Shown: positions 1,917 through 26,528 of the stretch, one piece after another | How positions within the stretch are numbered: position 1 is the first letter of the stretch | How the letters are laid out: the number at the start of each line of letters is the position of its first letter | Origin: a virus | Virus record (IMG/VR): IMGVR_UViG_3300024432_000937 | Coordinates: 1-33,901 of that record | Direction: 5' to 3' (one strand) | Length of the DNA stretch: 33,901 bases | Translations under genes and position numbers: made by a program | The notes under the pieces: model-generated | Databases searched by the model: none | The model's input: only the letters and a program-made list of their open reading frames with translations | Told to the model about the DNA's origin: nothing

Positions 1917-3506
1917 TCATCGTGCTAGTTGGAGAAGCCGGCCGCCGACGACTGGCGTGTACGTCCGCTGATAAACCATCTGATCGACGATGGCCTTCGC
2001 TCCCTCTGTCAACTGGTCAAATACGCCTTCTGGAACTTCGAGACTGCCCGGATAGGGTCTTACCCCGCCCGCTATCAGAGTATGTGTGACCGCCTGCGCT
2101 ACCATTTCGGACTCGATCAGGCAGTCGGCGCGGCCGGGCGTAACGCCTGCCTCCGCCTCCGCCGCCTGTTTGCATTGCTCATAACTCTTGAAGATCGCCG
2201 CCCGCTGCGACCATCTTTCCAGCCGTTCCGCTTCCGTCTCAACGGGCGTCCCTGGAACCGTCGTCGGCGTCGGCCTCTCCCGTTCCATCATAAAGAGTAC
2301 GTTCTTGAGATCGCGGGGCGCTCCCTCCCTCGTATATACGCCCGAACTACTGGCGGCTACTCTTACGTGACCCTCCCACCCCGGGTCTGATGCTGCGTTC
2401 GGATCGCCACCGGCCTCAGAGTATATCCGCTTCCCGGCGTCGGCTCCCTTCTCCACCAGGTCAACGTATTGAGCGTCCTCAACTATGTAGTAAGCCCTCC
2501 CACTGACGATCAGCTTTATCGCAGCCGGCTTGTCGGTCTTCCACACAAGCGCCAAGCCCATCATCGCAGCGCGCGCGACTGATAGCGTGACGGTCGGCGT
2601 TGGCGTCGGCGTTGGGGTATAAGGCCGCTCAGGTCTGAGCCTCGGCGTTGGAGTAGGGGTCGGTGTTGGAGTAGGGGTCGGCGTCGGGGTATAGGTCGGC
2701 GTCGGGGTATAGGTCGGCGTTGGAGTAGGGGTCGGCGTTGGAGTAGGGGTCGGCGTTGGAGTAGGGGCCGGTGTCGGGGTAGCGACGGCAACCGTGATCC
2801 CCATGTCTCCCAGGAGGCCAATGGTGATCAGGTTATATGCGATCTGTATAAAACGCCTGTCAACGTCCTCGCGAACGAAGACCGGATCGCTTCCAACGTC
2901 CTCAATCCATTCGCGGGCCCCGAGGACAACGCGATTCATCATCGCGGCCTCCATCACCATCCCCTTACGGTAGCTGATCCCCAATTCCTGCATAGCGCCC
3001 TTGACTGCCCACTCCGCGCGCTCTACGTGCGATGATCCCCACCACTGCCTCTCTTGCTGGTAGGGGATCGGCGAGGTTCCCTGTCCAGTCGGCAGAAAAT
3101 TTGCGCTCTGGGATCGCGGACCCCTGGTGATGCCGATACTGCTCAGATATTGCGCTGCTCTGGTTTTCCCCTGCTCTCGCAAGTCGTGATGGCTCATACC
3201 CTCCGGCGTCGTGGCGGAAACGTTCAGATACTCCACCTGCACTATGTTTGCGCCTGTAGTCGTAACGACCTTGTCATAAACATCGCGCTTGAGGCTTCCG
3301 GGCATGATGGGAATTTTCCAGAAGTCGAGGGCGTGCCGGACCAGAGCGCCAACATCGGCTTTCGCTGACGGTCTGAATGGAATTCCAGATGTCAATATGG
3401 GTGTCAATACGGGGGTTGGTGTCGGTGTGGGCGTAGCTGTAGGTGTGACGGTCTGGCTTAAGATACCATCAAAAGCCTTCCGTGAGTTATCCTGCGCGAT
3501 TAGCAT
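1917..3506 (-). CDS. Large Pro-Thr-linker virion-type protein
   Basis: 529 residues, the longest gene of the minus unit; ATG at 3506 with AAGGGGG upstream. Globular segments are separated by low-complexity Pro-Thr tracts: a short one at residues 20-35 and a long one at about 245-310 made of TPTP and YTPTP units. The C-terminal part contains two cysteines and no obvious membrane helix. Extended Pro-Thr linkers are typical of extracellular proteins of Chloroflexota, and in virions such linkers commonly tether spikes. A spike or vertex-fibre role is inference. The upstream gap carries a bidirectional terminator-like hairpin, so this gene may start a separate transcript. Confidence 0.85.
2643..2767 (-). 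repeat. 18-bp tandem repeats encoding Pro-Thr linker
   Basis: Read on the plus strand this is a run of 18-bp units of the form GTCGGCGTTGGAGTAGGG or GTCGGCGTCGGGGTATAG. They encode TPTPTP and TPTPTY on the minus strand within the 529-residue protein. Near-identical adjacent units make copy-number change by slippage likely. Confidence 0.9.
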
Positions 3507-4252: not shown

Positions 4253-5501
4253 CTTCTGTCGCCTCTGATTCCTCTGAGGCTTCCTCTGCCACTGTAGAAT
4301 CATAAACTGCATCTATCACCGTTTCCTGTCGTTCGTCCGCTTGCTGCTCGTCCGAGCGGTATTCCGTGACTATATTGATAAAGTCCTGCCTGCATCGTTG
4401 GCTAAACTCCGGGTCGGCCGCGAATTCAGGGATTATGCGCGACCATTTATCGAAAGCCGCCGCCGGGTCGGGTATGGTGATCTCCCATTGGCCGTTGATA
4501 CATCGCGCCCCCTCGCAAAGACAGACCGTGTCCACAAACTCCGACGCGATCTGCTCTGAGGGAGCGCCCCGCTGGATCATGCCCCGCATCTTGGTTATCG
4601 CGCCAGTGCCGATCTCTTCGGGCGTGAGAGCGCCCGTCGCCGTCGGGTCGGGTGCGCTCATGTCGGCCTGGCGGCTGAGGGCGCTCGCCTGATCGGTCGG
4701 CGCGGGATTCCCGGCGGCTCCCGCGAATCCCGCCTGTGGGTTCATACCTTCCTGACGCTGTGGCAACTGGATCACGTTCGAGTTATCAGCCGGGGGAAGA
4801 CCAGCCGGCGCGCCGGGTGCGGCTCCTGCGATAAGGTTTGCGGCGTGAGGAAGGATCGCGTTCCCTAAGCCCTCGGCGATCTTCTCCAACGCGCTAGTCT
4901 TGGCTCCTGTAGCGGAGACCGGCGCTCGCCGGCGATCCAAGCCCTCGACGAGATCGACGGTGCTTTTTATGACGCCAACAGCGTCAGAAAACCCACCGCC
5001 GCTCTGCGTTGCAAGAAGGTGCTGCATGAGAACCTCCTCCCTCTTCTGCTGCCCCTGGAAGATCATCTCATACATCTTGAGCATCCCTGCATTCGCGCTG
5101 TCCGCTTTCTCTGCCTTCGCTGCCTTCGCCTCCGTGCTCTTCGGCTTCTTCCGGTCGCCCTCGATCTTCAATTTGTAGGTCTCTGGCTTGTCTGAGTCCG
5201 CTAGAGTGAGCAGCGTACCTTTGGGCTGTCTAAAGGTGATGTTGTACTTCCCCGGCCCGCACTCCTCAGCTACTAGCTGGTAGAATGACAGGGCGTCAAT
5301 ATCGGCTATGTCCCATTGGACTTTCATAACCCCATCAATGGGTGATCCCTCTCGCGCGATCTGGATCGTTAAGTCCTGCCCTAAGCCCTTGAGCACAGCG
5401 ATCCGGTCTACGGGATCAATGGGGATGACCTCTTTCTTAAGTTCTGTCGCGTCCTTTACCCTTAGTCCGTCTCTTTTTCCCCGAAATGGTCTCCAGCGCA
5501 T
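4185..5501 (-). CDS. Acidic-tailed 438-residue protein, unknown (possible scaffold/assembly)
   Basis: The start is taken at 5501 because GGAAGGAGG sits nine bases before that ATG; a longer frame reaches 5555. The N-terminal 130 residues look like a beta-rich domain. A Lys/Ala-rich probable coiled segment follows (about 120-150), then Ala/Pro/Gly-rich linkers and a helical segment. The last 40 residues are very acidic (runs of E, D, S). Two cysteines lie near residues 330-340 (CLCEGARC). An acidic tail and low-complexity middle are common in scaffolding or DNA-mimic proteins, but no family is recognised. It overlaps both neighbours by about 65 bases, indicating coupled translation. Confidence 0.8.
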   Translation of the reverse strand: MRWRPFRGKRDGLRVKDATELKKEVIPIDPVDRIAVLKGLGQDLTIQIAREGSPIDGVMKVQWDIADIDALSFYQLVAEECGPGKYNITFRQPKGTLLTLADSDKPETYKLKIEGDRKKPKSTEAKAAKAEKADSANAGMLKMYEMIFQGQQKREEVLMQHLLATQSGGGFSDAVGVIKSTVDLVEGLDRRRAPVSATGAKTSALEKIAEGLGNAILPHAANLIAGAAPGAPAGLPPADNSNVIQLPQRQEGMNPQAGFAGAAGNPAPTDQASALSRQADMSAPDPTATGALTPEEIGTGAITKMRGMIQRGAPSEQIASEFVDTVCLCEGARCINGQWEITIPDPAAAFDKWSRIIPEFAADPEFSQRCRQDFINIVTEYRSDEQQADERQETVIDAVYDSTVAEEASEESEATEDDSRPLDSGSDEGTDQESQDDG

Positions 5502-5871
5502 CTTGATCCTCCTTCCGGGCGCGCTTGATTGCAGCCGCGTCAAGCTCTTTCCCACGCTCTATGAAATCGTCGATCTCAGATATTAGAAAATATCGGGTCG
5601 CGTCGAACCGTCTGAGGACTGTGAAGCCCCACTCGTCCGCGTGCCTGTTCAGCGTCAGGTTAGACACACCGAGCCTCTTCGCTGCCTCCCCTATGGAAAG
5701 ACTGATGTTTTTGGATAAAGCCCAAGCCGGCGGATTCCAGAGGTCGTTCTTGTGAGTGCTACCATAGGGTAGTGCCTTTCTCCGAACACTCTCCATGCCT
5801 TGTCCGTTCGCTCTCCAGTCGCTATCCGTTCGCTGATATGTGTCGTTTTGCTGTTGTGGGTAATGACTCAT
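5437..5871 (-). CDS. Helix-turn-helix DNA-binding protein, first gene of minus operon
   Basis: 144 residues. A MerR/excisionase-type helix-turn-helix is visible at about residues 50-90: a start like SIGEAAKRLGVSNLTLNRH, then a wing-like strand (GFTVLRRFDATRYFL) and ISEIDDFIER. The C-terminus is very basic. ATG 5871 has no Shine-Dalgarno, but a good promoter -10 box ends 17 bases upstream, so the mRNA would be nearly leaderless; this decides the start over an in-frame TTG at 5889 that overlaps the promoter. A regulator of the divergent control region is the likely role, inferred from position. Confidence 0.75.
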   Translation of the reverse strand: MSHYPQQQNDTYQRTDSDWRANGQGMESVRRKALPYGSTHKNDLWNPPAWALSKNISLSIGEAAKRLGVSNLTLNRHADEWGFTVLRRFDATRYFLISEIDDFIERGKELDAAAIKRARKEDQDALETISGKKRRTKGKGRDRT

Positions 5872-5887
5872 TGGTGGGTTTGATCTC

Positions 5888-5917
5888 AATATAGCACAGG
5901 CAGGCAGGGAAAGTCAA
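5888..5917 (-). promoter_or_regulatory. Sigma70-type promoter for minus operon (proximal)
   Basis: Read on the minus strand: TTGACT (5917-5912), 18-base spacer, TATATT (5893-5888). Its spacer start (TTTCCCTGCCTGCC) closely resembles the spacer of the plus-strand promoter at 7179-7208 (TTTCCTCTGCCTCC), so both may be read or repressed together. The predicted start of transcription is only about 10 bases before ATG 5871. Confidence 0.7.
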
Positions 5918-5964
5918 GGGATAAACCGGGGAGGGACGGGAAAAGAGAGCGATAGATCGAAAGA

Positions 5965-6000
5965 CGCCGCCGCTTCCACCAATGGAAACGTGCGGCGGCG
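5965..6000. other. GC-rich stem-loop in divergent control region
   Basis: CGCCGCCGC (5965-5973) pairs with GCGGCGGCG (5992-6000). An inner TTCCA/TGGAA stem closes a CCAA tetraloop. It lies between the two minus-strand promoters, so transcripts from the distal one would carry it as a leader structure. The outer arm with its flank (GCGGCGGCGCT, 5992-6002) is identical to an arm of the stem-loop at 14104-14156. Confidence 0.75.
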
Positions 6001-7458: not shown

Positions 7459-7494
7459 CGTGTCATAAAATTGCAACGGCGGAAAGGCTAGGTG

Positions 7495-8526
7495 ATGAAA
7501 CAAGGAGTCATAGCCGGGCCTTATGTGCCAAACTACCCCGAAGTGACAGACAAGTTGGCGCTTGTTAAAAGTTTCGCTGCGCGGTGGGTTTACAACGTTC
7601 TGGTGACGAAATTCCCGATAGAGGAGGATTGGGGCGACGATCCTGTTTGGGTCTTTGGCATTGTCACCGCCACCAAGACAGAGATAGCACAGAAAAGCGG
7701 CGTCGGGCGTTCTGGGTTTAGCAAGCTTTGGTCTCACCTGGTCGGGGCCGGCCTCGTCAGTGTACGCGACGACGGCGGAATTCTGATCCATTTCTACAAG
7801 AAAAAGGCGTATGATGCGATCTCGGCAACTGAGGTCAGGGAGAGATTCACAAGAAACGAGGCGGTCATCGCACAGTTGAAAGCGACCATCGAAAAAGACC
7901 CGGAAACCTCGCCTCCAGAGGTGGGTGATGTGCCTCCAGAAGAGGCAGATGTGCCTCCAGAAGAGGCAGATCTGCCTCCAGAAGAGGCAAGCCTCATCCT
8001 TTTAAAGGGTTTAAACAATAATACTCTCTCTCGTAATAAAATAATTTCCTGGTTTTATAGAGCGATTGGGCAGCGCAGAATTTCCGGGTCTGAGAGAGAG
8101 AAAGCTGGTCAAATTTACAAGAAGCTAAGAAGGGAAAAGTTTAGTGTCAGAGAGATCGCCTTTGCGACACAATGGACAGTAGAAAACGCAAAGGCTAAGC
8201 CTCGAACGTTCGGCCTTATCAATAACACGATAGGGCAAGCGATGGAGGCGCTCCAAAAGGCTGAGGAAAACGCCAAGAGTCTTGCGGAGCAACAGAGGCT
8301 CGTCGATGAGGCAAGGGCAGACCTGGAAAGCCAGGCGGAAGACACCAAGCGGATAGACGCGGTCAAAGACGGTATGACACCTCGGAAACGAAAAAATCTG
8401 CGCGAGGAGGCGTTCCGCGAATTGACGAACACGCCGGGCATGAGGGAGGCGTTCATAGGCGAACCCCTCATCACCGGGAAGGAAAACGAGATAATCAAAC
8501 GGGCGCTTGAGGAAAAACAGCCATAG
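7495..8526 (+). CDS. Putative replication initiator (lambda O-like organisation)
   Basis: 343 residues from ATG 7495 (AAAGG seven bases upstream). The N-terminal 110 residues form a winged-helix domain (TKTEIAQKSGVGRSGFSKLW..LVGAGLVSV) of the kind found in phage replisome organisers and plasmid Rep proteins. A linker with VPPEEAD repeats (about residues 140-166) is encoded by iteron-like DNA. A helical C-terminal half carries a coiled-coil-like stretch (about 245-285). In lambda O the same layout binds origin repeats inside its own gene with the N-domain and recruits the helicase with the C-domain. No helicase, primase or polymerase gene is present, so host replication proteins would be used. 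Role is inferred. Confidence 0.7.
   Translation: MKQGVIAGPYVPNYPEVTDKLALVKSFAARWVYNVLVTKFPIEEDWGDDPVWVFGIVTATKTEIAQKSGVGRSGFSKLWSHLVGAGLVSVRDDGGILIHFYKKKAYDAISATEVRERFTRNEAVIAQLKATIEKDPETSPPEVGDVPPEEADVPPEEADLPPEEASLILLKGLNNNTLSRNKIISWFYRAIGQRRISGSEREKAGQIYKKLRREKFSVREIAFATQWTVENAKAKPRTFGLINNTIGQAMEALQKAEENAKSLAEQQRLVDEARADLESQAEDTKRIDAVKDGMTPRKRKNLREEAFRELTNTPGMREAFIGEPLITGKENEIIKRALEEKQP
7911..7994 (+). repeat. Four iteron-like 21-bp direct repeats in the initiator gene
   Basis: Units start at 7911, 7932, 7953 and 7974 with an exact 21-bp period (two helical turns). The last three contain TGCCTCCAGAAGAGGCA, itself a dyad (TGCCTC/GAGGCA, five-base centre). The first is diverged but keeps GCCTCCAGAG. 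An AT-rich stretch follows directly. The arrangement matches initiator-bound iterons. Confidence 0.75.
8001..8060. other. AT-rich candidate DNA-unwinding element
   Basis: The 60 bases directly after the iterons are markedly AT-rich in a GC-leaning genome and include TTTTAAA, GTTTAAAC and AATAAAATAATTT. With the iterons this forms a plausible replication origin inside the initiator gene. Opening at this site is inferred. Confidence 0.55.
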
Positions 8527-10420: not shown

Positions 10421-10792
10421 GGGTGATTTATGGCATGTGGACGGCAAATAAAAGCCCCGATCTGCGGTTTTTCTGTAGATTCGCATTATGCGCGGGTTTT
10501 CTGCCTCTTGCAGCAGTCCGCTGCGGGCCTGCAAAAGTCGGCTGAAGCAGCTGTCAAATTCGCGAATTCCTCACGCTCAGCGAAAAAACCCGGTGTATTC
10601 ATGCCATTTTCGGCAGAAAAAGGCAATGGCGCCATTAACTATATGCCAGAAAAAACGGGAAAACGGCGGATTTCTGGCATGATTCGGCACATAATTATTC
10701 GCAGCAGACGGAAGCGGAAGCGGGAACGCGGCGCAAAGCGGCGTGTTTGCCGCCTTTTCCCCCTCAGCTTTGCCCGCGTTCCGCGTCCGGTT
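10421..10792. other. Palindrome-rich island, probably non-coding
   Basis: About 370 bases with a series of perfect dyads: CGCATTATGCG (10482-10492), CGGGTTTT/AAAACCCG (10493-10500 with 10585-10592), AATTCGCGAATT (10557-10568), AATGGCGCCATT (10625-10636) and ATGCCAGAAA/TTTCTGGCAT (10643-10652 with 10671-10680). A long imperfect stem at 10720-10784 encloses a GCGGC/GCCGC hairpin followed by CTTTT. A frame open from ATG 10430 runs through the island into the first cassette gene. Its composition (Arg-rich, no domain) and the dyads argue against coding, though GAGGGTG precedes that ATG. Confidence 0.6.
10738..10758 (+). terminator. Possible plus-strand intrinsic terminator
   Basis: GCGGC, a six-base GTGTTT loop, GCCGC, then CTTTT. 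The U-run is short, and the hairpin is nested inside a longer stem (10720-10738 with 10768-10784). It would separate early genes from the cassette array. Confidence 0.4.
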
Positions 10793-10840
10793 TTGGTCTG
10801 CATAATGTGCGTTATGGGGCGTTGGCTCCAGGAGGCAAAT
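10793..10840 (+). repeat. Cassette element copy 1
   Basis: TTGGTCTGCATAAT, a CATAA...TTATG dyad, then GGGGCGTTGGCTCC (stem GGGGC/GCTCC with GTTG loop) and AGGAGG, ending five bases before ATG 10841. One of nine related elements. Confidence 0.85.
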
Positions 10841-11041
10841 ATGTTCCCCGAATTCGGGCGGCGGCCTCAGTTTAAATACAGAGTTGGCGATGTGGTCTGC
10901 GATACTTACACGGACAAATATGCGCCGCCGGTTGTGGAGGTACTCAAACGGTGGGGCGACGAAACTGTCAGGATGTACCGGGTGAGGCGCGTGGCGACGA
11001 AGGGGAACGGCTATCCGGTCTCCGAAGAGTGGCTTGTGTAG
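10841..11041 (+). CDS. Cassette gene 1: small basic protein
   Basis: 66 residues; the start is fixed by the AGGAGG of cassette element 1 directly upstream, although the frame is open far upstream. The sequence FKYRVGDVVCDTYTDKYAPPVVEVLKRWGD..RMYRVRR resembles a small SH3-like or Kyprides-type beta-barrel that often binds nucleic acid, but no family can be named. Followed after five bases by the next element. Confidence 0.7.
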   Translation: MFPEFGRRPQFKYRVGDVVCDTYTDKYAPPVVEVLKRWGDETVRMYRVRRVATKGNGYPVSEEWLV

Positions 11042-11046
11042 AGATA

Positions 11047-11096
11047 ATTGGTCTGCATAATATGTATTCGGGGGCGTTGGCTCCAGGAGGTAAATA
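11047..11096 (+). repeat. Cassette element copy 2
   Basis: ATTGGTCTGCATAATA, then GGGGGCGTTGGCTCC and AGGAGG, six bases before ATG 11097. The right half of the AT dyad is degenerate. Confidence 0.85.
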
Positions 11097-11378
11097 ATGG
11101 GACAATGGGAAACGGCAAGAGGATATGGTTCTGACGAGATGGCTGACATTCTAGGCGAGGCGTTCCGCAACATAGCAGAATTGCGTCTGGGACAGCAAGC
11201 GCAGTCGCCGTGTCTGTTGGATTTGGCAGACGCGATTGAGTTCGTGTCGCGGGGAGCGCTTGTTGTGGGCGTGCACGCGGACGCCCCTCGCCTGGGCAAT
11301 GACCGCGCTATGGACGTGGCAGACCTCGACAATGCTGCGCTTTTCCCCACACTCATGAACAGAGGACAGATACGGTGA
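11097..11378 (+). CDS. Cassette gene 2: hypothetical protein
   Basis: 93 residues, start set by AGGAGG of element 2. Soluble, mostly helical N-terminus (ADILGEAFRNIAELRLG) followed by a more beta-like middle (ALVVGVHADAPRLG). One cysteine. No family recognised. The stop TGA merges with the 5' end of the next element. Confidence 0.7.
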   Translation: MGQWETARGYGSDEMADILGEAFRNIAELRLGQQAQSPCLLDLADAIEFVSRGALVVGVHADAPRLGNDRAMDVADLDNAALFPTLMNRGQIR

Positions 11379-11424
11379 TTGGTCTGCATAATACTCATTA
11401 TGGGGCGTTGTGAGGAGGCCGACT
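11379..11424 (+). repeat. Cassette element copy 3 (variant)
   Basis: TTGGTCTGCATAAT with a CATAAT...ATTATG dyad, then GGGGCGTTG. The GGCTCC arm is replaced, so no GC hairpin can form, but GAGGAGG is kept before GTG 11425. Confidence 0.75.
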
Positions 11425-11694
11425 GTGGCGCGTAGATATATAGCGAGGTGGTGGACGAAGAAGCACGAAGGGGCGCGCTATTTCTATGCGTTCCTGGACA
11501 TACCGCCGCTCCGCGCTGAGGCCAATCTCTACCCTCGTCTGGTCCGCTCAAGCCTGTCGGCGGACCTGTGGCGCTATGGGGCGGGCCTCAGTAACGAGGG
11601 GTTTTGTGTGAAGCTCTGGTTCAGGGGGCACTTTTTCCGAGGCTGCATAGCGATTGTGCGGCGTTGGCTCCAGAGGTCTGAAAATGACAATTAA
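11425..11694 (+). CDS. Cassette gene 3: small basic protein
   Basis: 89 residues from GTG 11425 (GAGGAGG six bases upstream). Basic and aromatic (YIARWWTKKHEGARYFYAF), soluble. Its last 17 codons are read from the following cassette element, whose usual stop is out of frame here, so the protein has an element-derived tail ending in QRSENDN. It overlaps the methylase gene by 11 bases. Function unknown. Confidence 0.65.
   Translation: MARRYIARWWTKKHEGARYFYAFLDIPPLRAEANLYPRLVRSSLSADLWRYGAGLSNEGFCVKLWFRGHFFRGCIAIVRRWLQRSENDN
11639..11683 (+). repeat. Cassette element copy 4 (diverged, partly coding)
   Basis: AGGCTGCATAGCGATTGTG then GCGTTGGCTCCAGAGG. The AT dyad is lost. It encodes the tail of the preceding gene and supplies the ribosome-binding site of ATG 11684. 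Confidence 0.7.
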
Positions 11695-12190
11695 AAGAGA
11701 GTGGTCAATGCCAAGTCGATACACTTTCAGCATTAGGCCGATAGCCGACCTCTTGACTGAGGAGGTGGGCGAGGGTCTATGGGTCGATCCATTCGCGGGT
11801 AGATGCAGAATAGCGGAGGTTACAAACGATTTCAACACAGCATTCGATACAAGCTATAATCTTGAGTCGCTTGACTTTCTGGCTCTATTCGGTGATCGCT
11901 CCGTTGACGGTGTGCTTTTCGATCCTCCCTACAGCGTGAGGCAGATCAAAGAATGTTATGAGTCGGTCGGTCTTAAGGTTCTCTCAGAGACCACGCGCTC
12001 GGACTGGTGGACGAAGCGAAAGCAGGCCATAGCGAGGGTCGCGAAGGACGGCGGGAAAGTGATCTCTTTTGGTTGGAACTCGAACGGGATCGGTCGCTCT
12101 CTGGGGTTCCGCAAGGAGAAAATTCTGCTTGTCGCTCATGGTGGTGTCCATAATGACACTATCGGCGTGGTGGAGATCAAATCTGCATGA
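11684..12190 (+). CDS. Cassette gene 4: orphan adenine-type DNA methyltransferase-like protein
   Basis: 168 residues; ATG 11684 after AGAGG. A motif I-like segment (GLWVDPFAGRCRIAEV, about residues 31-46, SAM binding) is followed by the catalytic-type DPPYS motif (DGVLFDPPYSVRQIKE, about residue 83), the signature of N6-adenine/N4-cytosine methylases. It is shorter than usual and has no obvious target-recognition domain or linked restriction nuclease. Possible roles are anti-restriction self-methylation or an RNA/other substrate. Ends in KSA*, with the stop flanking the next element. Confidence 0.75.
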   Translation: MTIKREWSMPSRYTFSIRPIADLLTEEVGEGLWVDPFAGRCRIAEVTNDFNTAFDTSYNLESLDFLALFGDRSVDGVLFDPPYSVRQIKECYESVGLKVLSETTRSDWWTKRKQAIARVAKDGGKVISFGWNSNGIGRSLGFRKEKILLVAHGGVHNDTIGVVEIKSA

Positions 12191-12238
12191 TTGGTCTGCA
12201 TAACAATAATATTGGGGCGTTGGCTCCAGGAGGCAGAA
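12190..12238 (+). repeat. Cassette element copy 5
   Basis: ATTGGTCTGCATAACAATAAT, then TTGGGGCGTTGGCTCC and AGGAGG, six bases before ATG 12239. The GC hairpin is intact. Confidence 0.85.
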
Positions 12239-12634
12239 ATGTTAAAAAGATGCTTCGTCCATGTTCTTATTTGCCTCCTGCGCGTCGTGGCTAATAGCGG
12301 CTTGCCTGCGGTGATTGGTCTCTGGTTATCCGTTCCCACATACGCTCGCAGCGGCGGGAAGCTGAGGATTTACCGCACCTTCTATGGCCAATGGCGTATG
12401 AATAGAGGAATCCGGCGCGGCGAGCGGCAAAGGAAGCGGAGGGAAAAGTATCCCCATTGGGCTAGATTTATCTGTTTCTGCTATGGGCATACTATACCCT
12501 CTCCCAGAATTGAGCGCGGAGCAAACACTAGCGGCTCGATCTCACTTCCTGATGCAACAGCGGAGAATATCGAACTTCGGATTGCTGGTTATGAATGTTT
12601 CAGATGCGGGAAATCTCTGGAAGGGCCTGCATAA
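12239..12634 (+). CDS. Cassette gene 5: membrane-anchored basic protein with CxxC
   Basis: 131 residues from ATG 12239, fixed by AGGAGG of element 5. A hydrophobic N-terminal helix (about 5-32) is followed by a very basic segment (RRGERQRKRREK) and a C-terminal CxxC (YECFRCGKSL). The positive charges suggest the C-terminal part stays in the cytoplasm. The last residues GPA* are encoded by the next element. No family recognised. Confidence 0.7.
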   Translation: MLKRCFVHVLICLLRVVANSGLPAVIGLWLSVPTYARSGGKLRIYRTFYGQWRMNRGIRRGERQRKRREKYPHWARFICFCYGHTIPSPRIERGANTSGSISLPDATAENIELRIAGYECFRCGKSLEGPA

Positions 12635-12673
12635 TAACTACTATGGGGCGTTGGCTCCGGGGAGGGAATCGCA
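12623..12673 (+). repeat. Cassette element copy 6
   Basis: GGGCCTGCATAATAACTA with a CATAATA...CTATG dyad, then GGGGCGTTGGCTCC and GGGGAGGG before ATG 12674. The TAA inside GCATAA is the stop of the preceding gene. Confidence 0.85.
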
Positions 12674-12775
12674 ATGTTTGATGGCTTGGTAGAAATAGGA
12701 CTAGCATTGTCGGCAGTCTTGATTTTCGTTGCTGGAATTCTGTTTGACCGGTGGTTGTATCGACGGTCTGCATAA
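12674..12775 (+). CDS. Cassette gene 6: 33-residue membrane microprotein
   Basis: ATG 12674 with GGGGAGGG seven bases upstream. A single helix, LALSAVLIFVAGILF, is flanked by an acidic N-terminus (MFDGLVEIG) and a basic C-terminus (DRWLYRRSA), a classic single-pass microprotein with a cytoplasmic tail. The stop TAA is supplied by the next cassette element (TCTGCATAA). The element on each side and the membrane profile support it being real. Function unknown. Confidence 0.7.
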   Translation: MFDGLVEIGLALSAVLIFVAGILFDRWLYRRSA

Positions 12776-12800
12776 TAACTATTATGAGGTGCGAGGCAAA
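12764..12800 (+). repeat. Cassette element copy 7 (short)
   Basis: GGTCTGCATAATAACTATTATG, with the best AT dyad of all (CATAATA, two bases, TATTATG). The GC hairpin is missing and only GCGAGG remains before ATG 12801. Confidence 0.8.
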
Positions 12801-13193
12801 ATGAGAACTCAATCAGAGATATTAGCGAGGATCAAAGAGCGGGATGAGGGCGATCCGTTTGATTGGGAGATCGACGAGTACATAGTATTTCTTGACTGGG
12901 AACACGTCAAGGATTTTCTGATCCCTGACGCGGACCAGGGCGGATGGAATGATGACTTTCGCGAACCGACGCGGGAGAACGTCCTTGAGAAAATGAGGGA
13001 GTATATGCCCTTTGCTGTTGATAAGGCCGAGCGTGGACGCGGCCTCTCCGCTCTAAGAAGCATCATGCACTATACAGCATGGGTGTGGCTGTTGGAAGAC
13101 GACGATCTCCTTGAGGTCGTCATGGTAGACTATGAGGACTATGGCAAGGGTATTCTGGGGCAGATAAGCCGGCGCTACGGCTGGTCTGCATAA
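12801..13193 (+). CDS. Cassette gene 7: acidic hypothetical protein
   Basis: 130 residues from ATG 12801. Very acidic (for example DEGDPFDWEIDEYIVFLDWEH and LLEDDDLLEVVMVDYEDYG), rich in Trp and Tyr, soluble. No motif recognised. Strongly acidic small early proteins of phages are often inhibitors that mimic DNA, but there is no specific evidence here. Its last codons (GWSA*) are read from the next element. Confidence 0.75.
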   Translation: MRTQSEILARIKERDEGDPFDWEIDEYIVFLDWEHVKDFLIPDADQGGWNDDFREPTRENVLEKMREYMPFAVDKAERGRGLSALRSIMHYTAWVWLLEDDDLLEVVMVDYEDYGKGILGQISRRYGWSA

Positions 13194-13231
13194 CAATAAT
13201 TATGGGGCGTTGGCTCCAGGAGGGAGTTCCG
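13182..13231 (+). repeat. Cassette element copy 8
   Basis: TGGTCTGCATAACAATAA with CATAA...TTATG, then GGGGCGTTGGCTCC and AGGAGGG before ATG 13232. The GC hairpin is intact and the preceding gene stops inside the element. Confidence 0.85.
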
Positions 13232-13471
13232 ATGAACGATTTTGACCTAGCGGACAAAAAGATCATTGACGAGTGGAGGGAAGGAGCCGCGAGGGTTCCG
13301 CAGTCAATGCGGCGGCGGATCGTGGACATGAAGAAGGCAGGAAAAAGCACCAGGGAGATCGTCTTTGCCCTTTACGAAGAATCCAGATATATTTGCATCC
13401 CGACCGTGAGCGTGATCGTCATAGAGGAATTCGCGGAAGAACGCGGCGAACTGCCCGTATTCCGTGTCTGA
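13232..13471 (+). CDS. Cassette gene 8: small helical protein, possible HTH
   Basis: 79 residues; start set by AGGAGGG. The segment MRRRIVDMKKAGKSTREIVFAL looks like the first helices of a resolvase/sigma-type helix-turn-helix. It is followed by a hydrophobic segment (IPTVSVIVIEEF). The next gene has the same plan (ERQRIIDL..SEAVGLDLMVVSQIIVDNI), so they may be paralogues. DNA binding is a guess. Confidence 0.7.
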   Translation: MNDFDLADKKIIDEWREGAARVPQSMRRRIVDMKKAGKSTREIVFALYEESRYICIPTVSVIVIEEFAEERGELPVFRV

Positions 13472-13479
13472 ACGGCGTT

Positions 13480-13523
13480 ATTGGTCTGCATAGTATCTAT
13501 TATGGGGGCGTTCGGGAATCAGC
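13480..13523 (+). repeat. Cassette element copy 9 (variant)
   Basis: ATTGGTCTGCATAGTATCTATTATG then GGGGGCGTT. The GGCTCC arm and AGGAGG are lost; GGGAATC is the only ribosome-binding candidate before ATG 13524. Confidence 0.75.
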
Positions 13524-13754
13524 ATGGAGAAGGCAGCACAGACAGTAGAGCGATATAGGGCAGAATTGAGTAAGAGGGCGAGCGCCGTCCCAAAGGCGGA
13601 ACGCCAGAGAATCATTGATCTGGCCTGGGAGTCGAACAGGTTCGGCGCGATCTCTGAGGCTGTCGGACTTGATCTGATGGTCGTCTCTCAGATAATCGTT
13701 GATAACATAATCGGAGAAGAGGGCTGCCACACTCTACGGAAGAGGGTGTGCTAG
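13524..13754 (+). CDS. Cassette gene 9: small helical protein, possible HTH
   Basis: 76 residues from ATG 13524 directly after the last element. Helical, with the same RIIDL...I..VGL...VSQIIVDNI arrangement as the preceding gene, suggesting a distant duplicate. The ribosome-binding site is poor. Last member of the cassette array; the following gene has a conventional leader (GGGAGAGGG). Confidence 0.65.
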   Translation: MEKAAQTVERYRAELSKRASAVPKAERQRIIDLAWESNRFGAISEAVGLDLMVVSQIIVDNIIGEEGCHTLRKRVC

Positions 13755-14103: not shown

Positions 14104-14156
14104 GCGGCGGCGCTCGTTATCCACGTTCCCTGTATCTGCTGCAATAGCGCCGCCGC
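14104..14156. other. GC-rich stem-loop A in non-coding gap
   Basis: GCGGCGGCGCT (14104-14114) pairs perfectly with AGCGCCGCCGC (14146-14156), loop 31 bases. The arm is identical to one arm at 5992-6002 in the control region. Confidence 0.75.
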
Positions 14157-14219
14157 TTATTCTGGAGTCATAAATGATCCTGAGGAAGAACACAAACAGA
14201 TAAAAGAAGCGGATCATAC

Positions 14220-14273
14220 GTCGGCGGCGCGCCCTTCCAAACACGATGCTGACACATGCCGCGCGCCGCCGAC
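14220..14273. other. GC-rich stem-loop B in non-coding gap
   Basis: GTCGGCGGCGCGC (14220-14232) pairs perfectly over 13 bp with GCGCGCCGCCGAC (14261-14273), loop 28 bases. It lies 63 bases after stem-loop A. Neither is followed by a U-run, so classical termination is unlikely. Together they fill the 192-base gap before 14290. Confidence 0.75.
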
Positions 14274-14289
14274 TATTTAGGAAACTGCA

Positions 14290-14496
14290 ATGATCAAAAC
14301 CAAGTGTCCGCGCTGTAGAGGTAGAGGCTATCTTATCAAGTGGGAGACTTTGTGGAGGTATTACAAGCAGCCTTGTTTCCTCTGTAAAGGGACTGGAAGG
14401 CTGGTCTACCCGAATGGCGGTCGTCAGAGCCGAGTCGTCCCTTTGAGGAGGCACAAATGGCTACGACCGGCGAAGAGGCGGCCGGGGAGAAGATGA
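14290..14496 (+). CDS. DnaJ-type zinc-finger small protein
   Basis: 68 residues from ATG 14290. It has two CxxCxGxG-type motifs (CPRCRGRGYL and CFLCKGTGRL), the hallmark of the cysteine-rich zinc-binding domain of DnaJ, here reduced to two repeats and lacking the J domain. The C-terminus is very basic (KWLRPAKRRPGRR). Such stand-alone modules bind unfolded protein or nucleic acid; the partner is unknown. A 21-residue microgene overlaps its 3' end. Confidence 0.75.
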   Translation: MIKTKCPRCRGRGYLIKWETLWRYYKQPCFLCKGTGRLVYPNGGRQSRVVPLRRHKWLRPAKRRPGRR

Positions 14497-14831: not shown

Positions 14832-15233
14832 ATGGACGAGAAAGACATAGTATTGTGCGCGCCGTATACAACTCTCGTCAGCATCGACGGCCGCGATGAG
14901 GATGTCACGATGGAGGTAGACCCGGCGATGTTGTTCAACGCGCCACTTCTCCCAGGGAGGGTGATCTCGCCGGAGATGTATGTACCGGGGATCGCCCTTA
15001 GAGTGCAAAAGGGCAGAGGTCTCTGCATTAAGGTCTTGATGACCGACGATCAGGCGCTTGACTACCTCAAGGCTCTTGCGACGAGCGTCGTTAGAAGCGC
15101 CCCGGAAAAACTGGATCAGGCGCTTTTAATGGTCAAGGAGGGCATGGAGGAGGCTCTGAAAGACTCCGCCAGGGGTCCGCGATGTGAGGGTCGCTTACAA
15201 GGAGGCATGAATGCACCGTTTGAGAGTATCTAA
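14832..15233 (+). CDS. Hypothetical 133-residue protein
   Basis: Start chosen at ATG 14832 (MDEKDIVLC), with GGAGGGG overlapping the previous stop; a longer frame from 14790 lies inside the previous gene. The N-terminal half is beta-rich, the second half helical (QALDYLKALATSVVRSAPEKL). It overlaps the next gene by 23 bases. No known domain. Confidence 0.7.
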   Translation: MDEKDIVLCAPYTTLVSIDGRDEDVTMEVDPAMLFNAPLLPGRVISPEMYVPGIALRVQKGRGLCIKVLMTDDQALDYLKALATSVVRSAPEKLDQALLMVKEGMEEALKDSARGPRCEGRLQGGMNAPFESI

Positions 15234-15432
15234 GGACGGTCTGAGGGTCACCTGTCCGGCCGCGCACAGGACGATCCTCACTGAAAGCTGTAGCCAGGGG
15301 GAAACGGAACACTGCGACTATTTTAACGGCCTCGATTTCTCGCGCGGCGCGGTCTACCTTCTGTGTGAGTACGGGCTTGAGGATCGCAGAAGCTCGATCA
15401 TTGTGCCTTCTCAATACAGAACTGGAGAGTAA
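15211..15432 (+). CDS. Small cysteine-rich protein
   Basis: 73 residues; ATG 15211 with GGAGG upstream, overlapping the previous gene. Four cysteines (VTCPAAH, ESCSQ, EHCDYF, LLCEYG) spaced as in a small zinc-stabilised fold or a disulphide protein; no signal peptide, so zinc is favoured. Part of a group of cysteine-rich small proteins in this unit. Confidence 0.7.
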   Translation: MHRLRVSKDGLRVTCPAAHRTILTESCSQGETEHCDYFNGLDFSRGAVYLLCEYGLEDRRSSIIVPSQYRTGE

Positions 15433-21589: not shown

Positions 21590-22261
21590 TCATTTCCTGC
21601 GTAGTAGATATATGAAGAACGCCAGACCAGCGAGCGCCCACGCTATGGTGACCTCGTCTATCTGCTTGCCTGGTTCCCCATCACCGGGGAATCCGTCAGG
21701 GGGAGGCTCCGGTTCCGGGGCAAGCTCAACTTTTTCGTAAGCGCCGCTTTGAGGGTTCCTCATGATACCGTGCATCATCAGGATCACGTCCGCTGCCAAT
21801 TCAAGGGGTATGTCGGGATTCTCGCGCCTGAACACGTCAAAAGTCCTCACTATTGCATAGGCTTCTTTGTTCATCTGCTCCTGCGTCATCTCCGGCTTAG
21901 TCGTCTTAAGAATGTCCAGGACAACGTCACCGACTAGCTCCGCGTGTGGATACCTGACAAAAGCCGGGTCGGAGGGGTCCTGGTAGAATATCGACCTGAT
22001 CCGCCTGTGCGGTCTCCGTAGCAGTCCGGCGGCTTCGTACATGGCGTATACCTCAGCCCTGTATGACTTATAAGACCAGTACCCTATCAGGCTTCCCAGC
22101 GCGCCGCCGATAGCTGCTCCCACCGGGCCGCCGATAGAAAACCCGGTGTAGGCTCCGCTGGCGGCGTTCACTGCGATCCCGATCTTCTTATTTCGGAGGT
22201 CATCCCTCAGCGCCTCGAAATCCTCTCTGATCTGCCTGTCCGGATCCGGGTAGTCCCTCAC
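21590..22261 (-). CDS. Membrane protein with glycine-zipper and C-terminal anchor
   Basis: 223 residues; ATG overlaps the previous stop (ATGA at 22258-22261). A glycine-rich hydrophobic stretch at about 32-62 (GFSIGGPVGAAIGGALGSLIGY) has the repeated GxxxG spacing of glycine zippers. A soluble helical domain and a Pro/Glu linker follow, and the C-terminus is a helix (TIAWALAGLAFFIYLLRRK). Glycine zippers are common in membrane-penetrating or pore proteins, so a role in genome delivery is conceivable, but this is inference. Confidence 0.8.
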   Translation of the reverse strand: MRDYPDPDRQIREDFEALRDDLRNKKIGIAVNAASGAYTGFSIGGPVGAAIGGALGSLIGYWSYKSYRAEVYAMYEAAGLLRRPHRRIRSIFYQDPSDPAFVRYPHAELVGDVVLDILKTTKPEMTQEQMNKEAYAIVRTFDVFRRENPDIPLELAADVILMMHGIMRNPQSGAYEKVELAPEPEPPPDGFPGDGEPGKQIDEVTIAWALAGLAFFIYLLRRK

Positions 22262-22977
22262 GACTGCCTCCTCATCAGGGCGAGGCCGCCTATTACGAGG
22301 CCGACTGCGGTCAAGATAGCACCCTTGCCTACCCCGGCCGGCTCTCTCTCTGTCTCAGGATAGGTCGGCGTTGGATAGACTGGCGTTGCCGTCGATGGCG
22401 GTCGTACTCTTTCAGTAGCGGTCGGCGGCTCCGTGAATGTCCGCGTAACCGTCGGAGTAGCGGTCGCGTACACCGCAGGCGGCAGATAGCCCCGCTCTAT
22501 TATAGCCAGTGCGATCTCCTGTCTTCTGTAGCTGTATCCATACTGCGCGCCTCGCTGGTTTGCGTTCTGCAGAGCGTGATCAACATACTGCTCGAATCTG
22601 CTGTCAGAGACCAGCGAAGCCGGACCCGTTGGCGTCACGACGACGCGAAAGAGGCTCAGGGAATAATCTACAGCTTCATGCAGAATCTTGACACGCGGGC
22701 CGAACGTCGGCGCTATGCCCGGCGCTCCCTCCACGTAGCGCGCCCCGACTAAAGCCCCCTCTATCTCCGCCTCCGTGAACGTCAGGCCGTTTTCACGTCC
22801 CAGATCGTTAGCGTAGCGCGTAAACTCACTGATAACCCGGCGGTAGTATGCGCGCTCTACCGTGTAGAGTTCCGCCTGTGGCACTCCGCTCGCTTCGATG
22901 CTTCTCCGGATCATCCTGGACACATAGTCAAGAATCCCCTCCCTCGTCCTCTCTACGGCTCCTAGAGCAACAATCAT
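22258..22977 (-). CDS. Pro/Thr-linker tail-anchored protein
   Basis: 239 residues; ATG 22977 overlaps the previous stop as ATGA. A soluble helical domain of about 165 residues is followed by a Thr/Pro linker (TATPTVTRTFTEPPTATE and onward, about 170-210) and a C-terminal helix (GAILTAVGLVIGGLALMRR). A membrane-anchored protein with an extended stalk, in the style of a virion spike base or Chloroflexota surface protein. Function unknown. Confidence 0.8.
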   Translation of the reverse strand: MIVALGAVERTREGILDYVSRMIRRSIEASGVPQAELYTVERAYYRRVISEFTRYANDLGRENGLTFTEAEIEGALVGARYVEGAPGIAPTFGPRVKILHEAVDYSLSLFRVVVTPTGPASLVSDSRFEQYVDHALQNANQRGAQYGYSYRRQEIALAIIERGYLPPAVYATATPTVTRTFTEPPTATERVRPPSTATPVYPTPTYPETEREPAGVGKGAILTAVGLVIGGLALMRRQS

Positions 22978-24767: not shown

Positions 24768-24956
24768 TTATGGATACGGTTTCTCAGGTAGCCGGTCGAT
24801 CCTCGCGTCCGCGCCCCTCAGCTTGACGTTATAATCCGGCCTCGTTCCGCCTCGCGGGATGGAGACCTCGCGCCCCGTCGTGAACACTCCATCGTCAAGC
24901 ATCGGCGTGGGTCCGGTCGGGTATAGCGGATAAGCCTTTCGCCCTGGAAAATTCAT
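24768..24956 (-). CDS. Small Pro/Arg-rich protein
   Basis: 62 residues; its ATG overlaps the previous stop (TGATG at 24954-24958), so it is coupled to the 516-residue gene. Soluble, with many Pro, Gly and Arg residues and a likely extended conformation (YPLYPTGPTPMLDDG). Such peptides can be cementing or linker proteins, but there is no direct evidence. Confidence 0.65.
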   Translation of the reverse strand: MNFPGRKAYPLYPTGPTPMLDDGVFTTGREVSIPRGGTRPDYNVKLRGADARIDRLPEKPYP

Positions 24957-26506
24957 CAGAGAGTCCTCACCATGAAGTTATTAAAATAGCCATCCACGAA
25001 ACTCGTATAGACCTGCTCGCCGAGGGTTATCGTGTCCATACTGCCGATCCCGCCGCCGCTTGACCTCCCGACGTAGCGCAGTTGGCCTAGAAATTCCCAA
25101 TTGACCGCCGTATGCGCTAGTATAGGCCAGACGAGGTACGTCGTCCCGTCGAAATTGTTGGGGTTAGAGTTCACCATGCCCGCTCCGTCATCATTCATCA
25201 CAGCCGGCTGCGCCCAGACTCCGTTATGCCTCCGCAACTGCCCCGCCAGAATATTCGCGAATACCGGCCCCTGCTGCATCCCGGCAAACATCTGATATTC
25301 GCTCAAAGCCGGGCCCGGGTACGGAGGCCGCAAGCCGGGCGCGAATGCAGGGACGAGGCCAGACCATATCAGGTTGTAGCCGTTATACTTCTGGAAAACG
25401 AGAACACAGCAATCGAGGTCTCCACATATCCAGTAGTTGATCGGAAAATAGCCCGCGCCCAGATATGTCAAATACGTTGTTGGAAAGCGATGTGTGCCAA
25501 CAGCGTCGTCCTGCACGTAGGGGAAGAATTCATCTGTGACGGCGTTATTCCAGGAGTACCCGATATAGATTTCGTCAACGCCGCTTTCGCCCTGCGAATA
25601 ATAGAGCCTGCCTTCAGTGTGGTGTCCGGGGTCTCCGAGGTCTGCCCATCCCAGACCGACCAGGTGTGTTGAAAGCGCCGTCCAGAGATCCGCGAGGTTC
25701 GTCGCTATGCCCGTCACGGCCGCGAACGTGGCGACCTCCGGGCTGCCTGTCGGCTTGACGCCCCCCGTTCGCATCGCGTATCGGTTAGCAAAGCGATCCT
25801 GTAGCACGATCCAATCTGTCTGACCTTCCGGGCCGCTTGTCGTTAGAAGCGTCTGGACGACAAGCGCGGCGGGGTCGATGTGTCCGCTGACGTGTTTCAA
25901 CTGTCCCGCGATATTCGCCCCTGCATCGAAGAAAGTCCCGCAGAGCGGAAAGCTCGCATCGTAAGCGTCAACGTCTGCATTGTCCAGAATCGCGCTATCG
26001 GTTAAGTTGTGATCAACGTCCCAGGTTCCGTCTGAGTCGCGAAGTATGGAGCCATCGGTACGACTGCTGGTCGCGATCATGGAATACGTCTCGTCAGCGA
26101 CGGTCATCGCGAAGGGCATGACCAGGCCCGCGTAGATGGTGTGGTACGTGACGCCGCCAAGAAAGCAGATGCTTATAGCGTCCTTGTCGCCGCACATCCA
26201 GAAAGAGAACTGAGCGCCCGCGCCGTCCAGGAATCCCGCCTCGTTCGTGGCATGAGTCCCGGCGAGGTCGTCCTGTACCTCGATCCTGACACGGTTCGGG
26301 TTTCCCAGGTCGCGCCAGACGTGAAGATAGAGCATCATCAGGCCGCCGTCCTCGCTCGCTGAGCGCAGATAGAGGTCAGTCGTCCCGCCGCCGGCCGCGA
26401 CCGACCAGCCGGCCGTTGCTACCCACGCCTGAAACGTGGCGAACCAGTTGATTATCTCGTCGGGCGCGCCCGGCGTTGTAATCCCTGCCAGATACCGAAA
26501 AGACAT
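24956..26506 (-). CDS. Large two-domain virion-type protein, copy A
   Basis: 516 residues, beta-rich, no membrane helix. Two internally repeated domains: the first (about 33-140) and the second (about 285-395) share VQDD..GTH, a following FW/YW.CGD, and YH/YN..(Y/W).GLV.(P).FA. It is closely related to the next gene upstream (26529-28082), giving four related domains in tandem. The ATG directly abuts an AG/CT palindrome whose 3' arm supplies GGAGAG. A spike, receptor-binding or major structural role fits size and context but is not proven. Confidence 0.85.
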   Translation of the reverse strand: MSFRYLAGITTPGAPDEIINWFATFQAWVATAGWSVAAGGGTTDLYLRSASEDGGLMMLYLHVWRDLGNPNRVRIEVQDDLAGTHATNEAGFLDGAGAQFSFWMCGDKDAISICFLGGVTYHTIYAGLVMPFAMTVADETYSMIATSSRTDGSILRDSDGTWDVDHNLTDSAILDNADVDAYDASFPLCGTFFDAGANIAGQLKHVSGHIDPAALVVQTLLTTSGPEGQTDWIVLQDRFANRYAMRTGGVKPTGSPEVATFAAVTGIATNLADLWTALSTHLVGLGWADLGDPGHHTEGRLYYSQGESGVDEIYIGYSWNNAVTDEFFPYVQDDAVGTHRFPTTYLTYLGAGYFPINYWICGDLDCCVLVFQKYNGYNLIWSGLVPAFAPGLRPPYPGPALSEYQMFAGMQQGPVFANILAGQLRRHNGVWAQPAVMNDDGAGMVNSNPNNFDGTTYLVWPILAHTAVNWEFLGQLRYVGRSSGGGIGSMDTITLGEQVYTSFVDGYFNNFMVRTL

Positions 26507-26528
26507 TTTCTCTCTCCAGAGAGGAAAA
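26506..26528. repeat. AG/CT palindrome covering a ribosome-binding site
   Basis: TTTTCTCTCTCCAGAGAGGAAAA spans exactly from the stop of the 517-residue gene to the start of the 516-residue gene. On the minus strand its 3' arm contains the GGAGAG that would serve as Shine-Dalgarno. Confidence 0.85.

Follow-up and report, generated by a model that had tools for sequence, protein, structure and literature searches.

Dif-like elements before nine small accessory genes of a bacterial virus as candidate Xer-type cassette junctions

A nine-copy element in the accessory region

We analyzed the whole of IMG/VR virus record IMGVR_UViG_3300024432_000937, a stretch of 33,901 nucleotides that we refer to as the window. 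A 127-bp direct repeat at its ends indicates a complete circle of 33,774 bp, and the window is a bacterial virus without an earlier description. Within its accessory region, nine genes follow one another on the plus strand, each preceded by a copy of one short element with a 28-bp core (Table 1). An original prediction, made by a model from the letters of the window, had singled out this element and compared it with the promoter/stem-loop cassettes of T4-type phages. Here we describe the element, its likeness to the Xer recombination site dif, and the readings that this likeness suggests.

The positions of the nine copies in Table 1 agree with searches for each half of the element. The left half, GGTCTGCATAAT, allowing up to two mismatches, matched nine times against 2.1 matches expected, a count that 0 of 100 shuffles reached; eight of these matches are true copies and the remaining one, at 12143, is a chance match. 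The right half, ATTATGGGGCGTTGGCTCC, allowing up to three mismatches, matched six times against 0.0 expected. Searched across the window, TCTGCATAA occurred nowhere outside the array. A start codon, ATG or GTG, lies no more than about 20 nt past the core in 9/9 copies, so that copies 1 to 9 precede the starts of genes 1 to 9 in turn. The original prediction had thus been right that nine copies on one strand, confined to the array, each stand directly before a start codon. Its spacing of 4-6 bases did not hold, as the gap between CATAAT and ATTATG is a constant 4 nt in all eight good copies, which we take as a 6-bp centre flanked by CATAA and TTATG. The core so read consists of an 11-bp conserved arm, GGTCTGCATAA, a variable 6-bp centre and a second arm, TTATGGGGC. 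Two further features had been described as general and proved partial: the 5' end of the element supplies the stop of the previous gene in copies 6, 7 and 8 (only 3/9), and the AGGAGG ahead of the start is complete in 5/9 copies. Just 5' of site 5, at 12182-12190, TCTGCATGATT resembles a remnant left half that ends the methylase gene (..IKSA, then stop). The element had no match among phage and plasmid records, and an exact 17-mer from the leader matched 31 times in GTDB and 3 times in IMG/VR, which is about chance level with the size of IMG/VR estimated.

An RNA-type hairpin, GGGGC-GTTG-GCTCC, had also been predicted between the core and the Shine-Dalgarno sequence. Of the eight copies that can be aligned, five have it intact and three (3, 7 and 9) have lost its right arm. 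If the dyad and this hairpin formed a stem-loop in the mRNA that protects or regulates each gene, its presence in most alignable copies would be accounted for. We consider such an RNA element very improbable, however, because the dyad has compensatory changes in 0/48 cells, the hairpin does not clearly exceed shuffled controls, it is missing from the related sites described below as well as from three copies here, and no Rfam family matched at gathering level.

Two relatives allowed a comparison of gene content. R1 (IMGVR_UViG_3300028835_001661, 35,552 bp) and R2 (IMGVR_UViG_3300028610_002683, 34,853 bp; records L083 and L084) are both complete circles with 144-bp terminal repeats, and both are syntenic with the window across the structural block, where the proteins are about 30-80% identical. 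These three circular genomes of ~34-35 kb form one virus group, probably a new family. R1 has no counterparts for the proteins of the window from the replication gene (7492-8526) to 15211-15432, with the exception of a weak match for 14525 (E 7e-4). Over the same accessory interval, R2 has counterparts only for 8651, 10199, the helix-turn-helix (HTH) pair of genes 8 and 9, and 14832. None of the nine array genes has a match in R1, and in R2 only genes 8 and 9 do, where their homolog is a single gene that lies upstream of the R2 site and lacks the element. The gene content around the array differs among all three genomes. This almost complete difference, together with the resemblance of two cassette genes to genes of unrelated phages, supports the predicted self-contained cassette of element plus gene.

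Table 1. Genes, element copies and predicted folded structures of the array region (aa, amino acids)
Feature	Position	Strand	Description
Gene 1	10841..11041	+	66 aa; no family; absent from R1, R2
Gene 2	11097..11378	+	93 aa; no family assigned; absent from R1, R2
Gene 3	11425..11694	+	89 aa, GTG start; no family assigned; absent from R1, R2
Gene 4	11684..12190	+	DNA methyltransferase, 168 aa; phrog_11619 (E=3e-38); 61% identity to Streptococcus phage 23TH; absent from R1, R2
Gene 5	12239..12634	+	131 aa; no family assigned; absent from R1, R2
Gene 6	12674..12775	+	33 aa, hydrophobic; absent from R1, R2
Gene 7	12801..13193	+	130 aa; phrog_5706; similar to Caulobacter and Microbacterium phage proteins; absent from R1, R2
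Gene 8	13232..13471	+	79 aa; weak HTH match; paralogue of gene 9
Gene 9	13524..13754	+	76 aa; paralogue of gene 8
Site 1	10795..10822	+	GGTCTGCATAA-TGTGCG-TTATGGGGCGT; conserved (master) dif-like site; 18/28 to E. coli dif, top 28-mer of the window
Site 2	11050..11077	+	Centre TATGTA
Site 3	11381..11408	+	Centre TACTCA; leader hairpin lost
Site 4	11640..11667	+	Degenerate, AGGCTGCATAG-CGATTG-TGCGGCGTTGG; within 3' end of preceding open reading frame
Site 5	12193..12220	+	Centre CAATAA, as in site 8
Site 6	12624..12651	+	Centre TAACTA, as in site 7; GCATAA is the stop of gene 12239
Site 7	12765..12792	+	Centre TAACTA; GCATAA is the stop of gene 12674; leader hairpin lost
Site 8	13183..13210	+	Centre CAATAA; GCATAA is the stop of gene 12801
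Site 9	13483..13510	+	Centre TATCTA; leader hairpin lost
Leader of copy 1	10823..10840	+	TGGCTCCAGGAGG..., extension to the right that carries the Shine-Dalgarno; copies 2, 5, 6, 8 and in part 4 are similar; not in R1, R2
Stem-loop ATGCCAGAAA...TTTCTGGCAT	10643..10680	+	By DNA folding; same place in R1, R2; TTTCTGGCAT invariant in alignment
Left partner arm CATAATTATTCGCAGCAGAC...	10690..10737	+	Predicted to pair with copy 1; ATAATTnTTnGCAG invariant in the window, R1, R2; z = -5.4

Likeness to dif and the folded module

We scanned IMG/VR with patterns of the core, removed coding and chance matches, and retained sites in R1 (where the pattern match was listed as L056), R2 and three other viral contigs, L054, L058 and L043. 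The alignment, 13 sites from six virus records with copies of the window included, has a near-invariant GGTCTGCATAA, six variable bases, TTATGGGGC and weakly conserved flanks, a high/low/high profile that follows the 11-6-11 plan of dif. The E. coli dif site is GGTGCGCATAA-TGTATA-TTATGTTAAAT (PMC3025954). Among the 67,746 28-mers in the window, the best five matches to E. coli dif alone are copies of the element, headed by copy 1 (18/28). Across eight copies the identity is 14-18/28, with copy 5 at 14, and we counted the element as following the published working rule of at least 15 in non-coding DNA (PMC7062461). We also built a dif matrix from 11 sites, five of them published and six genome candidates preselected by the core CATAAT....ATTATG. 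With both arms, 22 of 20,000 dinucleotide shuffles scored as high as the element consensus; without the outer right arm 1 of 20,000 did, and 0 of 10,320 other stretches of the window came up to it. Because six of the matrix sites were preselected for the inner motif, the comparison with E. coli dif is the cleaner, independent test.

The motif ATAA-centre-TTAT determines binding and cutting by XerCD (PMC11705084). Two 11-bp arms around a 6-bp centre with this inner motif are present in sites 1, 3, 7 and 8 and in R1; the R2 site has a 7-nt centre, and sites 2, 4, 5, 6 and 9 are off at one inner base or more. Phage dif motifs vary most in the centre and the XerD arm (PMC7062461), and it is likewise the centre and the right (XerD) arm that vary most in the element. 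Judged by its sequence, the core has the layout of an Xer site rather than being, in the main, a promoter or RNA hairpin. The cassette unit of the original prediction therefore stood, but the kind of element that it had suggested did not.

Relatives without any copy would have told against the original prediction; R1 and R2 have one full site each. In both genomes this site lies in a conserved hairpin module shared with copy 1, in the order stem-loop (..CTGGCAT), left arm ATAATTnTTnGCAG, diverging loop and site. Alignment of the three genomes shows no change in the left partner arm, in the left site arm or in TTATGGGGC, whereas the intervening loop diverges. When the module is folded in silico as single-stranded DNA, both the left site arm and the inner right arm are predicted to pair with the left arm, and all or part of the centre stays unpaired (z = -5.4 in the window, -3.0 in R1, -2.1 in R2). 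Copies 2-9, which are unique to the window, lack a matching upstream arm. Mild z-scores, between -2.2 and -2.7, were obtained for copies 4, 5 and 8, in which 3, 12 and 6 of the 28 site bases, respectively, pair upstream. CTXphi builds its attP by folding a pair of inverted dif-like sites separated by about 90 nt (PMC3089051). Inverted pairing arms and an unpaired centre are also predicted in the window, R1 and R2, although the left arm has no normal centre. The module at copy 1 may form a bulged single-strand hairpin in vivo, as in the folded CTXphi attP.

A non-coding module of two stem-loops, conserved at one place in three genomes, could also be a replication origin or packaging signal formed with copy 1, in which case copies 2-9 would be duplicates spread by homologous recombination and retained for their good ribosome-binding site. 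That neighboring genes 8 and 9 are diverged paralogues fits such a history. The array genes are mostly not duplicates of one another, however, and the strongest constraint falls on the dif arms rather than on the leader, including in unrelated viruses where the left arm of the module was not seen. We regard this origin or packaging signal as quite unlikely.

The sites in L043, L054 and L058 are less certainly related to the elements of the window. With the 6-nt-centre pattern, 4/6 distinct matches were judged non-coding (P about 0.001, a value that rests on an assumed 10% of phage DNA being non-coding and takes a 90-aa open reading frame overlapping the R1 site as spurious). Because no gene start follows the site in L043 or L058, the dif-like site is not simply a gene leader. 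In L043, a gene for a T4-like terminase ATPase domain (5248-5982) terminates exactly in the dif-like site (..DCSA, then stop). Among the matches dropped, those in L053/L055 lie within a 465-aa open reading frame on the opposite strand, that in L057 is the reverse complement of the terminase motif PIIIIMQR, and that in L086 appears coding.

These sites also bear on the possibility that the element is a regulatory one, akin to the start-associated sequences (SAS) and extended SAS (ESAS) of cluster K mycobacteriophages, in which an operator or promoter dyad and a special ribosome-binding site would co-regulate the accessory genes. Like SAS/ESAS, each copy stands directly before the start of an accessory gene with a leader and a Shine-Dalgarno sequence. 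The order of parts is also alike, with an inverted repeat and spacer followed by a conserved Shine-Dalgarno block, in the non-structural half of the genome and at times with the stop of the previous gene included (PMC3203893; PMC11373665). SAS/ESAS are thought to hold promoters (PMC11373665), and ESAS differ from the element in having their own consensus and a putative SigA promoter with both hexamers, with no match to dif described. The consensus GGGATAGGAGCCC was not matched here and no SigA-like pair of -35 and -10 hexamers is conserved, the one weak match being in copy 3, so we rejected membership of the element in SAS/ESAS. A regulatory dyad would not need the conserved left arm of the hairpin, nor would it explain the match of the left site arm to dif. 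In addition, the leader half is not retained in R1 and R2, the sites of L043 and L058 precede no gene, and L054 has a separate promoter, TTGATC-17-TATAAT (read by eye), between site and gene. We consider regulation of the SAS/ESAS kind unlikely.

Xer-type junctions as the preferred reading

We favor the reading, at a probability of roughly 0.6, that the elements are cassette junctions of the Xer type that in addition provide a ribosome-binding site, with copy 1 as the ancestral, folded copy and host XerC/XerD acting on them. In this reading the 11-bp arm, the 6-bp centre, the inner right arm TTATG and the GGGGC after it would together make up a dif-type Xer site. Copy 1 would be the virus's own ancestral site, an entry or attachment site inside the folded hairpin module, and would recombine with the host dif or with other sites. 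We propose host XerC/XerD for this step because we detected no gene for a recombinase in the viral genome: the Phage_integrase family PF00589 had no match in the six virus records, three of which may be fragments, and was found in 14/14 positive controls. Copies 2-9 would be extra sites that bound mostly single-gene cassettes. Since a cassette would run from a right half and leader with ribosome-binding site through the gene to a left half, exchange of whole genes would be possible, and strand exchange in the 6-bp centre could insert, delete or swap translation-ready genes. The analysis establishes the anatomy of the sites, the module conserved in R1 and R2, the differing gene content and the lack of a PF00589 match; catalysis by Xer, folding in vivo, movement of cassettes and a role of the leader in translation are inferred. 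R1 also has a left half that ends the gene next to its site (EALDCSA, then stop), an arrangement of site, gene and left half that corresponds to a one-cassette state.

Several observations weigh against this reading. The outer right arm departs from dif, GGGCGT sharing 1/6 bases with the usual TTAAAT; divergent XerD arms are known in phage sites (PMC7062461) and in those of the gonococcal genetic island (GGI). Although Xer exchange normally needs identical centres, only copies 5/8 (CAATAA) and 6/7 (TAACTA) share one. These two pairs are nested, 6/7 inside 5/8, which is the pattern expected from successive insertions, but two pairs prove nothing. Sites 2, 4 and 5, which deviate in the inner right arm, may be inactive. 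L043, L054 and L058 contribute one match each, close to the limit of chance. We took Chloroflexota as a guess at the host from the TPTP-rich proteins of the virus; no host was found, nor was any provirus in 400 sampled Chloroflexota genomes, nor a clear chromosomal dif of the element consensus in about 1190 sampled genomes from three phyla. Of these phyla, Chloroflexota and that of a Desulfobacteraceae genome (G005) gave no dif-like match, and that of a Sedimentisphaerales genome (G008) gave one match with one mismatch. No junction, excised form or rearranged form was observed. Finally, reported tests in A. baumannii gave no excision of cassettes bounded by Xer sites, whereas fusion of plasmids at sites of this kind did occur (PMC11705084), and because of this difference we consider co-integration the likelier route of exchange for the cassettes of the window too.

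Among the closest parallels to Xer-type junctions of this kind are the pdif/xrs modules of Acinetobacter plasmids, where host XerC/XerD act on several dif-like sites with variable centres per replicon and short modules differ between related replicons (PMC11705084, PMC13141974, PMC6449649). The same relation holds here, as several Xer-type sites bound the modules of the window, and R1 and R2 have no array and other genes in its place. The paired sites of Acinetobacter are mostly inverted, whereas the window has nine sites all on the plus strand, mostly with one gene each, and in a virus. We know of no ribosome-binding site that belongs to a pdif site in Acinetobacter. Phages known as integrative mobile elements exploiting Xer (IMEX), among them CTXphi, VGJphi, TLCphi and enterogokushoviruses, resemble the window in carrying a dif-like site without an integrase (PMC3089051, PMC7062461). 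IMEX phages have one or two sites in small genomes, in contrast to the reiterated array in a genome of ~34 kb, and chromosomal integration was not observed for the window.

Integrons offer a likeness of another kind: their single genes all point the same way and are separated by recombination sites, and one kind of site (of attC and attI) folds from single-stranded DNA. In integrons, attC has a GTTRRRY core that pairs with its partner, and recombination depends on the integron integrase. The window has neither an integron integrase nor GTTRRRY core pairing nor an attC after each gene, and only its first site is predicted to be folded. The motif that comes closest, GTTGGCT, does not follow this rule and is missing from R1 and R2, and with no PF00589 match we rejected an integron cassette. 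It is possible, if doubtful, that the virus captures genes in an integron-like manner without a recombinase of its own, by means of a folded dif-like entry site, a one-direction array fused to ribosome-binding sites, cassettes from unrelated phages and shuffling by host XerCD.

The mobile promoter/stem-loop (PeSL) cassettes of T4-type phages place a repeated stem-loop element before small accessory genes. The kinship with them that had been suggested was not upheld: the element has no recognizable promoter, and the dyad and the hairpin, which is not kept, have no compensatory changes beyond controls. The half with hairpin and ribosome-binding site is missing at the R1 and R2 sites. We rejected the PeSL reading on the lack of promoter hexamers and because the element is not always before a gene.

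So far, gene modules bounded by Xer sites are known chiefly from plasmids of Acinetobacter, and the phages known to use Xer integrate through one or two sites. If Xer-type junctions do bound the cassettes of the window, accessory ("ORFan") regions of phages would turn over gene by gene through a housekeeping enzyme of the host, and the array would be a compact natural system for testing whether single genes are moved by Xer sites, a question left open by the Acinetobacter experiments.

Other features of the virus genomes

No terminase, polymerase or integrase was recognized in the three circular genomes. The structural protein encoded at 26529-28082 had no match among 50,697 phage records, its AlphaFold model was uninformative (predicted local distance difference test, pLDDT, 33), and peptides of the structural proteins of the window, used alone as queries, retrieved no relatives. 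Positions 24956-28082 encode two tandem structural proteins of 516/517 aa, 58% identical to each other and weakly matching phrog_687. Both match one common stretch in R1, and likewise in R2, apparently a single gene in each relative. Proteins of the structural region at 1917-3506 and 22258-22977 contain long TPTPTP repeats.

R1, which consists of records L069 and L070, has a 58-bp direct repeat of 95% identity in L070 (1156-1213 and 1509-1566) that covers the Shine-Dalgarno sequence and first codons of two adjacent genes, a start-associated duplication of another kind. In the window, GC-rich direct repeats of 73% identity at 14147-14179 and 14263-14295 lie around the starts of two short open reading frames.

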